From positions 310,001-374,000 of the forward strand of contig NZ_BCAG01000001.1 of assembly GCF_001293685.1 (NCBI RefSeq): a DNA stretch of 64,000 nt, written 5' to 3'. Origin of the DNA: Desulfatitalea tepidiphila (GTDB lineage Bacteria; Desulfobacterota; Desulfobacteria; Desulfobacterales; Desulfosarcinaceae). A program made the position numbers and the translations under genes. Positions 33,018 through 37,476 of this stretch are shown here, in pieces. The first letter of the stretch is position 1; each line of letters opens with the position of its first letter. The notes beneath the pieces are model-generated. The model ran no database searches. It was not told where the DNA came from and saw nothing but the letters and a program-made list of their open reading frames with translations.

Positions 33018-33314
33018 GTTCCAACTCAATGTGATTCATCCTGAAGGGCATGTTTTACAGAAGGCGTTTGTTGAAAATAATTCGTGTGGCAACGGTTGCG
33101 GCAGGCCCGGGTGGGGCAGGTGGCCAGGGCCACATACGCCTGCGGTCTTAGAGCCAGTTAAATGCAGACGGCGGACAAGCGGCCCAGACTGTTTGAGCGC
33201 AGCGAGTTTCTGGGCCGCCCGCCGTGCATTTTACTGGCTCTTGACCGCTTGGCGTGTGGCATCGGCCACCTGCCCCACCCGGGCCGAGTTTAATGGATGA
33301 CATTCAGTTAGAAT
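33018..33314. repeat. ~300-bp dispersed palindromic element, copy B
   Basis: Inverted relative to copy A. The right end CATTCAGTTAGAAT is at 33301-33314, and a degraded left end lies at 33018-33031 (4 of 14 bases changed). The central hairpin arms read GAGCCAGT and ACTGGCTC where copy A has GCCGGT and ACCGGC, so base changes are compensated on both strands. The rest of the 512-bp gap 32987-33498 has no gene. Confidence 0.85.
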
Positions 33315-33498
33315 CGCTGGTGCGTGGACGCGTCGATTGACGTTTTCCGGATCCTTTCCTTCGTTTGATTCCCCCTCGGTACAGTAAAATTGTCAAGGCT
33401 TTCATGGCCCTGCGCTGCGTGGCCCGGCCAGGGAGCTGTTTTTGCATCATCGACCATCAATCGATGTTTCATATCAAACCCAAATCAGGAGGTGTTTT

Positions 33499-34542
33499 AT
33501 GTCACTGCAACTCAAAGTTGCGCGATCAACATGGGAAAAGGAACAGGTGTACCAACTGCGGTCCAAGGTGTTCATCGAAGAGGAAAGGCGCTTCGATCTG
33601 TCGAACAAGCACATTTTCGATCGTTTCGACAGCTTCGCGGAGACGAGCAATTTTCTCGCCTTCGACGGCGATACGCCCGTGGCCGGCATTCGGTTGGTGC
33701 TGGACAACCCGGTGGGCCTGCCGGCCGAGGAGGCATTCGATTTCGGGCCGTTGCGCCGATCGCTGCACGGCGGCTGCGCCACGGTCGGTTGGTTTTGCAT
33801 CAGCAGGCGTTTCCGGCGCCATCCCGGCCTCGTCGTATCGCTGATTCAGATGTGCTTTCGCAAGATGCGCCAGCATGGCGCGCGCCATGTACTGGCGGTG
33901 ATGCACCCGCCGGCGCTGCCGCTGTTGGCGCGTCTCATAGGGGCCCGGCCACTGGGGCCCGAAATCATGGATCATGCCCTGGGCGTCGGGATCATCCCCG
34001 TGCACGTGGATCTCGAAGATCTGCCGGATAGCAATAGGAAGCGGTTCTCAGATCCGGATAAACACCTGTTCGATGATTCGGCCGAGCGCCGACTCTTCCG
34101 AAAAGATGAGACCATCGTCGCCGGGGGAGACGAGGATGCGCATGTCTATCAGATCATGCGGGGCGTGGTGCGGGTTCAGGGCCGGTCAGAACCAATGGAT
34201 AAGGCCGGATCCAAAGAACAGGCAGCCGATGCGATGCAACTCGGCCCCGGCCAGCTCTTCGGCGTACTTTCGGCTTTGGACGGACGGGGGATGGCCAGCA
34301 CCCTGGTGGCCCACTCCGAAGATGTGGACGTCATGGTATGGCCCAGGCAATCCTTTATCGATCAGATGTATGCTTCCCCGGAACGCATGATGTGGCTTTG
34401 CCGAATCATGAGCCAAAGGGTTCGGTGCACCTATGATCCCATGTTCGGGATGCCGGCGGCGGCCCTCTCCAAAGCTTTGACCGCGCCTGTTTTAATCGAT
34501 GCGCCCGTCGAACACCGTCGGCCGATGGAAGTCCTGCTATAA
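33499..34542 (+). CDS. GNAT (FeeM/autoinducer-synthase-like) acyltransferase fused to cNMP-binding domain
   Basis: A 347-aa protein. Residues 1-185 resemble the GNAT branch containing acyl-homoserine-lactone synthases and N-acyl amino acid synthase FeeM: VYQLRSKVFIEEERRF near the start, FLAFDGDTPVAGIRLV as central strands, and VGWFCISRRFRRHPG before the acyl-CoA/ACP loop. Residues ~200-320 form a cyclic-nucleotide-binding (CAP-type) beta-barrel with FRKDETIVAGGDED and LGPGQLFGVLSAL. ATG 33499 follows AGGAGG. The acyltransferase may be allosterically gated by a nucleotide. It is 44 bases upstream of the E1/nitroreductase gene and probably acts with it. Confidence 0.78.
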   Translation: MSLQLKVARSTWEKEQVYQLRSKVFIEEERRFDLSNKHIFDRFDSFAETSNFLAFDGDTPVAGIRLVLDNPVGLPAEEAFDFGPLRRSLHGGCATVGWFCISRRFRRHPGLVVSLIQMCFRKMRQHGARHVLAVMHPPALPLLARLIGARPLGPEIMDHALGVGIIPVHVDLEDLPDSNRKRFSDPDKHLFDDSAERRLFRKDETIVAGGDEDAHVYQIMRGVVRVQGRSEPMDKAGSKEQAADAMQLGPGQLFGVLSALDGRGMASTLVAHSEDVDVMVWPRQSFIDQMYASPERMMWLCRIMSQRVRCTYDPMFGMPAAALSKALTAPVLIDAPVEHRRPMEVLL

Positions 34543-34586
34543 CCACTTGTCACAACGTCCGGCTCAGCCGGTAAAAGGAGTCAGTT

Positions 34587-36713
34587 ATGCAAGCTTGTCA
34601 ATCCCCTCGGCAGATCCACCCTGCGACTGCCGGAAGCAAATACGAATACTATGAGCAAGCCTTCGACCGCAACATCGGGTTTCTGACGCCTGGCGAACAG
34701 GAGCGTCTGCACGAAGCCGTCGTGGCCATTCCCGGCCTGGGCGGAGCGGGCGGCGCCCACGTGGCGGCCATGGCCCGTCTGGGCGTCGGCCGGTTTCACC
34801 TCGCCGATCTGGACCGATTCGAAGTGGTCAACATCAATCGCCAGCACGGTGCCCGGGCCGGGACCTTCGGCCGCCCCAAATGCGAGGTGCTGGCCGAAGA
34901 GGCGCGAGCCATCAATCCGTTTGCGGCGCTGAAGGTGTTCGAGGAAGGGGTCACGGCGGAGAACATCGATGCCTTCCTCGAGGGCGTGGATGTAGTCATC
35001 GATGGCATGGATTTTTTCAACATCGAGATTCGGCGGTTGATTTTTCGTCGTGCCTGGGAGAAGCGCATCCACGTGGTCACGGCCGGACCGATCGGATTCG
35101 GCAGTGCGTTCATGGTGTTCGCACCGGATCGCGGCATGACGTTCGATCGCTATTTCGATCTTCATGACGACATGCGCGTGGAAGAGAAGTTGATCGCTTT
35201 CTTTGTCGGCCTGGTCCCCAAGGCCGCTCATAAGTCCTATACCTTGCCGGGAAGCATCGATATGGCCGAGCAGCGGGGGCCTTCCCTCGGCGCCGGATGC
35301 CAGCTGTGTTCGGCCGTGGCGGCGGCCGAGGTGGTGCGGATCCTGCTCGGCAAACCGGGATTGCGGCCGGCGCCCTATTACTTCCAGTTCGATCCGTTTG
35401 CGCGCCGATTCGTCCAGGGGCGGTTGTGGTTCGGCAACCGGGGGCCGCTGCAGCGGGTCAAGCGATGGCTGATGAAAGCCAGACTGTGCGGTCAGTCTGA
35501 ATATTTGCAAGAGCCTCGACCGAAGCTCGAAGCGCCATCGGCGCCGGGCGGCGGGCCGCTGACCGCGGAGGTTCGGGACTATCTGATGAAAGCCGCCATT
35601 CGGGCGCCCTCGGGAGATAATTGCCAGCCATGGCGTTATGCCCATCAGGCCGATACCATTCATTTCATGGTGGATCCCGCAGCAGATGATTCGTTTTTCA
35701 ACGTGGCCCAGGCCGCCTCCCTGATCAGCTGCGGTGCTGCCGTGGAAAACCTGGTGCTGGCGGCCAGCCGTTTCGGAATGGCGGCCGCCGTTGCGGTTTC
35801 GGCGGCAGACGGCAATGCCCGGGTCCAGATCGATTTGTCACCCGGCACGTTGTGCGAAGATCCCTTGCATCGGTTTGTCTGGGAAAGGCATACCAACCGT
35901 ACGCTTTACGATGGCTCGCCCCTGGAGCCCGATCATCGCCTCAAGATTCACGCGGCCATACAACCGTTTCAGCAGGCCGAGCTGCTCTTGCTGACCGAAC
36001 CGCAACAGATCCGGGAGTCTGCGCAATTGGTCGCCGGTATCGACCGTATACGGGCGGAGCATCGAGGGCTGCACACCCATCTCATGCGCATGATTCGTTT
36101 CAGCGTCCAGGAGGCACGCGAACGGCGCGACGGGTTTTTCCTCAAGAACCTGGAGGCGGGCAGGGCCGGCGAGTGGTTTATCCGGTGCACGCGGCCCTGG
36201 CCGGTGATGCGGATGCTCAACCATTTGGGGATGGGCAGGATGATATCCGGGATTTCCCGCCACGGCATTCTTTCGGCCTCGGCGGTGGGGATGCTCAAGG
36301 TTCCGAGCGTGCTCCCCGAAGATCTGATTGCCGGCGGCAGGGCGCTGGAGCGGATTTGGCTGACGGTGGCCAGCCTGGGCCTGGCGTTTCAACCCATGAC
36401 CGCCGCCACCTTGTTCTGGTTGCGCTGGCAACTCGGCGGGCAGGGCGATTTCCGTCCCGCCCATCGGCGGTTGTTGAAGGACCTGTGGCCCCGATACCAG
36501 CGATTGTTCGGCGTGACGCATGAATCCGAGGGGCATGTCATGCTGTTTCGCGTCGGAAAAGGGCGGCCGGTCGGCTGCCGCACGTTGCGAAAGCCATTGG
36601 CCTCCTTCCGGTTGCCCTGGCCGTTCGAGGCATCCTCCCGGGATGACCTCAGTGGCGGGACTCCTGAGCCGGAGCAGGCGGCTGGATCGATAAAACAGGC
36701 GTTTGGGCGATAG
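34587..36713 (+). CDS. E1-like (ThiF) adenylyltransferase fused to nitroreductase domain
   Basis: A 708-aa fusion. Residues ~35-300 form an E1/ThiF/MoeB-type Rossmann domain with GLGGAGG at 50-56, the DLDRFEVVNINRQ nucleotide and Mg segment, and a CQLC pair. Residues ~325-620 form an FMN-dependent nitroreductase-like domain (IRAPSGDNCQPWRY, and FVWERHTNRTLYDG for the second flavin face). E1-like enzymes adenylate a C-terminal carboxylate; nitroreductase domains oxidise or reduce heterocycles. With the upstream acyltransferase this suggests synthesis of a modified amino-acid or lipid-like small molecule. No ubiquitin-like or carrier protein lies nearby. Confidence 0.83.
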   Translation: MQACQSPRQIHPATAGSKYEYYEQAFDRNIGFLTPGEQERLHEAVVAIPGLGGAGGAHVAAMARLGVGRFHLADLDRFEVVNINRQHGARAGTFGRPKCEVLAEEARAINPFAALKVFEEGVTAENIDAFLEGVDVVIDGMDFFNIEIRRLIFRRAWEKRIHVVTAGPIGFGSAFMVFAPDRGMTFDRYFDLHDDMRVEEKLIAFFVGLVPKAAHKSYTLPGSIDMAEQRGPSLGAGCQLCSAVAAAEVVRILLGKPGLRPAPYYFQFDPFARRFVQGRLWFGNRGPLQRVKRWLMKARLCGQSEYLQEPRPKLEAPSAPGGGPLTAEVRDYLMKAAIRAPSGDNCQPWRYAHQADTIHFMVDPAADDSFFNVAQAASLISCGAAVENLVLAASRFGMAAAVAVSAADGNARVQIDLSPGTLCEDPLHRFVWERHTNRTLYDGSPLEPDHRLKIHAAIQPFQQAELLLLTEPQQIRESAQLVAGIDRIRAEHRGLHTHLMRMIRFSVQEARERRDGFFLKNLEAGRAGEWFIRCTRPWPVMRMLNHLGMGRMISGISRHGILSASAVGMLKVPSVLPEDLIAGGRALERIWLTVASLGLAFQPMTAATLFWLRWQLGGQGDFRPAHRRLLKDLWPRYQRLFGVTHESEGHVMLFRVGKGRPVGCRTLRKPLASFRLPWPFEASSRDDLSGGTPEPEQAAGSIKQAFGR

Positions 36714-36731
36714 GCCATGCGGACGGCGCCG

Positions 36732-37003
36732 GGAAGGGCATGCATTAAAGAGGGAGTTTGATAAAAAAATTCGCATCGCAACGGACATGGCAGGCGTGGG
36801 TGGGGCAGGTGGCCAGGGCCACGTGAGCCTGCGGTCTTGGAGCCAGTTAAATGCAAACGGCGGACAAGCGGCCCAGACTGTTTGAGCGCAGCGAGTTTCT
36901 GGGCCGCCCGCCGTGCATTTTACTGGCTCTTGACCGCTTGGCGTGTGGCATCGGCCACCTGTTCCAACCACGACGGGTTTAATGAATCGCGTTCAGTTAG
37001 AAT
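36732..37003. repeat. ~300-bp dispersed palindromic element, copy C
   Basis: Same orientation as copy B. It matches A and B from GAAGGGCATGCATTA to the right terminal repeat (C)GTTCAGTTAGAAT ending at 37003; the outermost left end is missing. B and C form direct repeats around 33315-36731. The rest of the 466-bp gap (36714-37179) shows no gene. Confidence 0.85.
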
Positions 37004-37179
37004 CTCTGAATGGGCGGATTACGGTTTGATTTTGGAATCATTCTGTCGTATGGAACCCGCCAGGCATTTTGTTGTGCGCCCTATCCTCTCTGATGGCTAT
37101 TCTCCTCTCGTTCCTCTGCTTCTTTTCCCGGTTCCATTTGCCCGGCGCCACGATATTTTTAACCCCAATGGAGTTTCAG

Positions 37180-37476
37180 ATGAGCCGGAAATTGATCTTT
37201 GGCGAACGGCGGCGGCACGAACGCAGGAGCTGCGTCTTTGAAATCGATCTCAATGATCACAACGGTTATTTCAGATGTTACTTGAGAGACTTGAGCCTCG
37301 GTGGCGCTCTGGTCGAACACCCCTCCCAATTCAAGCCCAATCTGGGGCAAGAGCTCTTTTTGACGATCCCCTATCGGCAACGATCCGGCGTCGTGGTCGT
37401 TACAGGACATGTCGTGAGAGCACGCGCCGGCACCGTGGCGGTCGCCTTTCGGCAGGGATCATCACCGGCAGCATAG
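37180..37476 (+). CDS. PilZ-domain protein
   Basis: A 98-aa single-domain protein. It has the c-di-GMP-binding motifs of PilZ: R-x3-R in ERRRHERR near the N-terminus and D-x-S-x2-G in RDLSLGGALVE, followed by beta-strands with GHVVRA. It likely acts as a c-di-GMP receptor regulating surface or motility functions through protein contacts. ATG 37180 is used because GGAG sits 6 bases upstream; the in-frame ATG at 37168 overlaps that site. No neighbour reveals the target. Confidence 0.87.
   Translation: MSRKLIFGERRRHERRSCVFEIDLNDHNGYFRCYLRDLSLGGALVEHPSQFKPNLGQELFLTIPYRQRSGVVVVTGHVVRARAGTVAVAFRQGSSPAA

Follow-up and report, generated by a model that had tools for sequence, protein, structure and literature searches.

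What would a bacterium make with an acyltransferase gene placed directly before a gene for an adenylating enzyme fused to a flavin nitroreductase? The question is raised by two genes, here called gene 1 and gene 2, of Desulfatitalea tepidiphila, a member of a genus that we take to be strictly anaerobic and sulfate-reducing. They lie within a stretch of 64,000 nucleotides (positions 310,001 to 374,000 of contig NZ_BCAG01000001.1, assembly GCF_001293685.1), which as a whole is called the window and to which coordinates refer unless stated otherwise. We consider it likely that the pair encodes a pathway to oxazolone (azlactone) lipids, of the kind represented by OxzAB, TrzAS and TyzACB. For this assignment the present analysis contributes domain identity, conserved adjacency and fusion, a conserved ThiF nucleotide site and purifying selection, while the reactions themselves are known from the work of others on related enzymes.

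The gene pair and its domains

An earlier reading of the DNA letters (the sequence-only reading) had described two open reading frames, 44 bases apart and each behind a ribosome-binding site, and both were found as described:

33499 to 34542, forward strand: gene 1, 347 amino acids from the ATG that follows AGGAGG
33499 to 34068, forward strand: gene 1 residues 1-190, FeeM-type GNAT domain (N-acyl amino acid synthase-like) of a subfamily with [VI]GW[FL]C past a lost glutamate
34090 to 34365, forward strand: gene 1 residues 198-289, cyclic-nucleotide-binding (cNMP) fold with a degenerate binding cassette
34543 to 34586, forward strand: intergenic gap of 44 bases, holding the ribosome-binding site of gene 2, AAAGGAGTCAGTTATG
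34587 to 36713, forward strand: gene 2, 708 amino acids, AGGAG before the start
34587 to 35501, forward strand: gene 2 residues 1-305, ThiF/E1-type adenylating domain, candidate oxazolone cyclase
35553 to 36611, forward strand: gene 2 residues 323-675, Acg/Rv1355c-like flavin nitroreductase domain, candidate desaturase

In the open reading frame listing the longest form of gene 1 starts at TTG 33442. The domains exceed their Pfam cut-offs, namely FeeM (PF21926; 66 bits over residues 16-171, cut-off 27) and cNMP_binding (PF00027; 37.3 bits over residues 198-289, cut-off 27.5) in gene 1, and ThiF (PF00899; 151.3 bits over residues 27-273, cut-off 28.1) and Nitroreductase (PF00881; 31.4 bits, cut-off 23.5) in gene 2. 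The FeeM- or autoinducer-synthase-like acyltransferase and the E1-like domain fused to a flavin nitroreductase, both named in the sequence-only reading, are thereby confirmed, and a profile of 17 relatives matches the GNAT domain to FeeM (PDB 2g0b) at 1e-21. The NCBIfam model that scores highest for gene 2 is NF011424 PRK14851, a 'hypothetical protein' (807.1 bits over residues 16-673), and the E1 half exceeds the curated cut-off of NF006077 PRK08223 (366.3 versus 266 bits). The nitroreductase domain matches Acg (2ymv, 1.1e-13 by profile search), a family that the flavin half also resembles in a match to NF047509 below that model's cut-off. Among solved E1 structures the best matches of gene 2 are ThiF and TcdA/CsdL (PDB 4d79, 4yed), with PaaA and MccB also among the profile matches. 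TcdA/CsdL is the E1 that forms cyclic N6-threonylcarbamoyladenosine (ct6A) and works by ATP-dependent intramolecular cyclisation; different from gene 2, however, it acts on tRNA and is without a flavin domain.

Gene 1 is the sole FeeM match of its genome (E up to 0.001), and the two other matches to gene 2 in this genome cover the ThiF part alone. The nearest relative among the matches listed is contig DHGT01000024.1 of Desulfatitalea sp. UBA4791, in which gene 2 is 94% identical. Measured against this sister locus, the ratio of nonsynonymous to synonymous substitution rates (dN/dS) is 0.12 for the GNAT, 0.11 for the E1 and 0.22 for the nitroreductase part, with 0.11 for a nearby MsrAB gene as control. 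The GNAT, E1 and nitroreductase frames are under purifying selection.

Conservation of the pair

Are the two genes partners? In a phylum sample of 297 genomes, the own genome included, an E1 of the gene 2 type occurs in 16 genomes, which span 8 families; these match the ThiF part of PRK14851 with 361 bits or more, and 119 bits is the score of the next such match listed. FeeM is found in 33 of the 297 and in every one of these 16 (Fisher p 1e-17, kinship ignored). When 9 further genomes with the E1 and/or the nitroreductase are added to the 16, FeeM is above cut-off in 25/25. In 17 of these the distance to the E1 or nitroreductase is 10 kb at most, where gene counts and genome sizes would predict about 0.45. 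Gene 2 has matches with an E-value of 1e-40 or better in 10 of 97 relatives' genomes, comprising 6/11 in the genus (one of them, G299, by the nitroreductase half only), 0/19 in the rest of the family and 4 more in the order. A wider contig search with the single gene 2 protein yielded at least two loci, and an alignment query might reach further.

Two-gene copies adjoin in the sister locus (L047) and in the relative loci L081, L082 and L083, the last three keeping adjacency at 64-66% identity. In an elusimicrobial locus (L048) FeeM, E1 and nitroreductase are three adjoining genes, and in L084 they form a single 876-residue GNAT-E1-nitroreductase protein. The NCBI model PRK14852 likewise begins with FeeM (residues 6-229) and continues with the E1-nitroreductase; its representative DVUL_RS15680, a triple fusion of 989 residues, lies among XrtA/PEP-CTERM genes on the megaplasmid of Nitratidesulfovibrio vulgaris DP4 (L089), a genetically tractable species. 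Since the two triple fusions have GNATs of different subfamilies, the fusion probably arose twice. Taken together, the pairing of the acyltransferase with the E1-nitroreductase is real and conserved, as the sequence-only reading had supposed when it treated the two genes as one module.

Active-site residues

In the E1 domain, glycines 50, 52, 53 and 55 as well as R85, Q86, K98 and D139 are identical in 28/28 relatives. D142, which aligns with D127 of ThiF, is Asp in 24 and Glu in 4 of these. Judged by these residues, the ThiF nucleotide site of gene 2 is intact. The first and second cysteine of a CxxC pair are kept in 28 and 26 of the 28. In the nitroreductase domain the SGDNxQPW motif is present in 22 of 23 relatives, the remaining one having a gap, and R434, N437, R438 and R504 are conserved in all 23. 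By profile coordinates only, Gln651 of TrzS would correspond approximately to Q602 and Arg540 to R489 (or R504), two placements with matching offsets, and Asp217 is left unplaced.

The acyltransferase differs from FeeM in that the glutamate of the AE[LV] motif, kept in 12/12 other FeeM-type proteins compared, is Thr95 in gene 1, though fold and family are the same. In the subfamily to which gene 1 belongs (n = 6) this column holds Thr in 4 and Gly and Ser in 1 each, and is followed two and three residues later by an invariant Gly-Trp. This changed site means that substrate or mechanism of the gene 1 acyltransferase may differ from those of FeeM. The sequence-only reading had made the conservation of the pair and the retention of GNAT and E1 active-site residues in homologues a test of its proposal; the pairing and the E1 motifs stand, as do those of the nitroreductase and the GNAT fold, and what does not is the glutamate, lost in the gene 1 subfamily.

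A putative oxazolone pathway

How might these activities act together? The GNAT domain of gene 1 would load the amino nitrogen of an amino acid with a fatty acyl chain taken from CoA or an acyl carrier, and the ThiF domain of gene 2 would then activate the free carboxylate of the N-acyl amino acid with ATP. The amide oxygen would close the five-membered ring, and the flavin domain would insert a double bond afterwards. This follows what is described for TrzAS: tryptophan is acylated by TrzA, and the product is cyclised with ATP and then desaturated with O2 by TrzS, in which ThiF is fused to a flavin oxidase (PMC12856293). Oxazolones are what TrzAS and TyzACB set free, in cells as well as in vitro (PMC12856293, PMC10404671). 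The acylate, adenylate and oxidise/cyclise route put forward in the sequence-only reading is thus right in outline. A network of 2416 ThiF sequences contains two subclusters in which most nodes have an oxidase gene, an acyltransferase gene or both as neighbours (PMC12856293), and this network may already contain relatives of the window pair. Acylate-cyclise-desaturate chemistry is already known from the papers on TrzAS, TyzABC and the stieleriacines, and we regard the pair as a variant form of that pathway and not a new kind; its points of interest are the anaerobic setting, the changed GNAT site, a decayed sensor and the link to exporters. That the pair makes an oxazolone is inferred, as would be any choice of amino acid, chain length and, in an anaerobe, electron acceptor.

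The known systems resemble the pair to different degrees. In TrzA-TrzS (Rv1356c-Rv1355c) the acyltransferase gene also adjoins a ThiF-flavin oxidase fusion, and the flavin half of gene 2 matches the Rv1355c family model below its cut-off; the TrzS reaction, however, is O2-dependent whereas the window host is presumably an anaerobe, and the cNMP domain of gene 1 has no counterpart mentioned for TrzA in the accessible text (PMC12856293). OxzA-OxzB of Pseudoalteromonas rubra again combine an N-acyltransferase with a ThiF-oxidase fusion (PMC12856293, PMC10404671) but differ, as compared by description, in host and export setting. TyzACB of Mycobacterium tuberculosis has the same three activities and is encoded near mmpL9, a gene for an RND-family transporter, as several relatives of the window pair are likewise near RND genes; different from the pair, its ThiF and oxidase are separate proteins, and the accessible part of the report mentions neither a cNMP domain nor LolA-like or DUF1302 proteins (PMC10404671). 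The PRK14852 protein DVUL_RS15680 unites FeeM, ThiF and nitroreductase in one chain, yet its FeeM part bears the glutamate and is without a cNMP domain, and its setting is that of XrtA/PEP-CTERM export.

Several observations weigh against an oxazolone pathway. Gene 2 remains under the curated cut-off of PRK14851 (807.1 versus 1170 bits), which 0/297 genomes pass, and its flavin half under that of the Rv1355c/TrzS family (NF005901; 276.3 versus 476 bits). Conservation of two nitroreductase residues is incomplete (R489 in 17/23, Q602 in 19/23), and the FeeM glutamate is lost in 6/6 of the window GNAT subfamily. FeeM occurs without this E1 in 17/297 genomes, and in 8 of the 25 it lies apart from the E1 or nitroreductase; in four of these eight (G120, G148, G299, G367) the contig that carries the E1 or nitroreductase is shorter than 10 kb, and in the other four (G187, G074, G162, G155) it is longer and without FeeM. 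Structures predicted by AlphaFold for the window, L047 and L048 sequences were too poor to use (mean predicted local distance difference test, pLDDT, 39.2 and 54.3). Beside the pair, no exporter genes were seen in the window, in L047 or in L081-L083 (L083 being a 4.4-kb contig). Finally, the known desaturases use O2 while the host is presumably a strict anaerobe.

Export genes near relatives of the pair

A locus was counted as an exporter locus if it held at least one RND/MMPL, LolA-like or DUF1302 protein, the proteins being grouped in BLAST clusters whose representatives were typed. Exporter genes are found in 15 of 31 distinct relative loci, several of which share one genome (L079 was dropped as identical to L047), and in some loci an FtsX/MacB-type ABC pair replaces the RND gene. 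In L080, genes for a DUF1302 protein, a GNAT-cNMP protein of the window type and an RND protein follow in series with gaps of 31 and 18 bases; the E1-nitroreductase gene, oppositely oriented, is found some 520 bases upstream. In the own genome a single DUF1302 match occurs, within a run of candidate exporter genes about 306 kb from the pair on the same contig:

L094 4954 to 10271 (contig C1, about 652.5-657.8 kb): run of RND/MMPL, LolA-like and DUF1302 genes, candidate unlinked exporter

By eye, this run sits behind a gene resembling TetR-type regulators. These neighbourhoods suggest a link to export for the family, and the window pair would share it by extension, its product reaching the outer membrane through exporters of the RND or ABC type together with LolA-like and DUF1302 proteins. 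Since genes for synthesis and for export are often found close together, the relatives suggest a testable role for oxazolones as exported outer-membrane lipids; the authors of the TrzAS work regard the physiological role of these compounds as a major unresolved question and consider one in signalling (PMC12856293). Among the literature matches listed, with most subscription journals outside coverage, there was no treatment of oxazolone genes in sulfate reducers or of their exporter neighbourhood.

But how would a reaction known to need O2 proceed in anaerobes? Conceivably, another electron acceptor is used or the step acts as an oxygen-triggered switch. A fuller picture, tentative and as a whole rather doubtful, would be that the oxazolones of sulfate reducers and related anaerobes are an exported envelope lipid, made with a rebuilt GNAT site (glutamate lost, Gly-Trp gained) formerly under the control of a fused cyclic-nucleotide sensor, brought to the outer membrane by an RND or ABC exporter devoted to it, along with a LolA-like carrier and a DUF1302 barrel, and desaturated with another electron acceptor or switched by oxygen from a saturated to a desaturated lipid.

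The cyclic-nucleotide domain

Hallmarks of cyclic-nucleotide binding are a Glu and an Arg in the phosphate-binding cassette. In the relatives L080-L083 the cassette reads FGELxxLDGxxRxA in 4/4, and nucleotide control is plausible in these relatives as they keep both residues; in the window it reads FGVLSALDGRGMAS, with Glu changed to Val and Arg to Met. The C-terminus of gene 1 is also about 40-50 residues shorter than in the L080-L083 proteins, and part of the domain is lost altogether from the sister:

34102 to 34351, forward strand: 250 bases missing from the sister contig (L047; L079 is the same locus)

The loss shifts the frame and leaves the sister with a 213-residue protein in which the GNAT is whole and most of the cNMP domain gone. 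The dN/dS of the shared cNMP tail, 0.43, rests on five changes, too few to rely on. L084 and L048 are without a cNMP domain. Of the cyclic-nucleotide pocket in the sequence-only reading, the fold is therefore present and the binding cassette not intact. As judged from these residues, the domain most likely once served as a control module and then lost nucleotide binding in the window lineage; selection acts on the enzyme parts while the sensor decays. A Crp-type helix-turn-helix seen by eye at the C-terminus of the relatives gave Pfam E-values of 0.08 and 0.13 in two of four scanned, below cut-off, and is not claimed.

Alternative explanations

Could the same enzymes deliver something other than an oxazolone? 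The product may be an open-chain N-acyl 2,3-dehydroamino acid of the stieleriacine, thalassotalic acid or kyonggic acid kind, the oxazolone being an activated intermediate that water opens. In producers of such acids, genes for an N-acyl synthase, ThiF and a nitroreductase occur jointly, with no oxazolone observed in the accessible account (PMC12479983), and tryptazolones are opened by acid and by alcohol (PMC12856293). Given that TrzAS and TyzACB release the oxazolones themselves, we judge this alternative unlikely. We hold it to be very unlikely that the pair makes a signalling or storage compound and that a cyclic nucleotide bound to gene 1 switches its synthesis, as the sequence-only reading had proposed. 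The cNMP fold above its Pfam cut-off, the cassette residues kept in L080-L083 and the signalling role considered by the TrzAS authors (PMC12856293) speak for it; nucleotide control of the window copy nevertheless fails on the two changed hallmark residues, the shortened C-terminus and the sister that dropped 250 bases of the domain and kept its GNAT, to which the relatives without any cNMP domain can be added. For a storage molecule no support was found.

Alternatively, gene 2 might modify a peptide or protein in the manner of a conjugation E1 or of MccB in microcin C synthesis, with the acyltransferase a mere neighbour. Its E1 fold, its CxxC pair and the presence of PaaA and MccB among the profile matches would fit, but the acyltransferase is linked to it above chance, fusions included. 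No ubiquitin-like, carrier or precursor gene was noticed among window frames of at least 80 or relatives' frames of at least 70 residues (printed from 120), a weak search that a short peptide could escape; we consider this reading highly improbable. That two unrelated or decaying genes adjoin by chance is hardly conceivable, even though the cNMP part is decaying and a dispersed repeat has a copy on either side of the pair. Adjacency is kept in L081-L083, and the co-occurrence with FeeM, the dN/dS values of GNAT, E1 and nitroreductase and the proximity counts refute it in the main. An oxazolone pathway remains the reading we prefer.

Genomic setting and further observations

The G+C content is 60-63% across the pair (33500-37000) and 54-58% in the surroundings, and this together with the patchy presence in the genus makes it possible that the pair was acquired from elsewhere. 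On its two flanks the pair has direct copies of a dispersed, roughly 277-nucleotide repeat with inner inverted repeats (33043-33319 and 36733-37008), 89% identical to each other over 246 nucleotides. About 40 further matches occur in the genome among 40 of 178 candidates scored, and at the site of the right-hand copy the sister contig has 58 bases where the window has 276. The repeat looks like a mobile non-coding element. One match to a known RNA near the pair was rejected (E 0.6, 18.3 bits versus a gathering score of 37). Three window proteins that were scanned are iron-sulfur proteins.

Other arrangements were seen among the relatives. A plasmid of Bdellovibrio sp. HAGR004 (L090, 4092-8852) carries in a row a LolA-like gene, an ABC ATPase, an ABC permease, a gene for a 388-residue protein and an E1 of the gene 2 type. 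In L058 (8833-10674) a nitroreductase of the family is fused behind a part that by eye resembles S-adenosylmethionine-dependent methyltransferases (613 residues), a hint of a methylated product. The surroundings of the triple fusion of N. vulgaris (L089, 1-19329) comprise genes of XrtA/PEP-CTERM export and genes for PEP-CTERM proteins; a PilZ gene follows at some distance, and the window likewise has one downstream of the pair (37189-37476).

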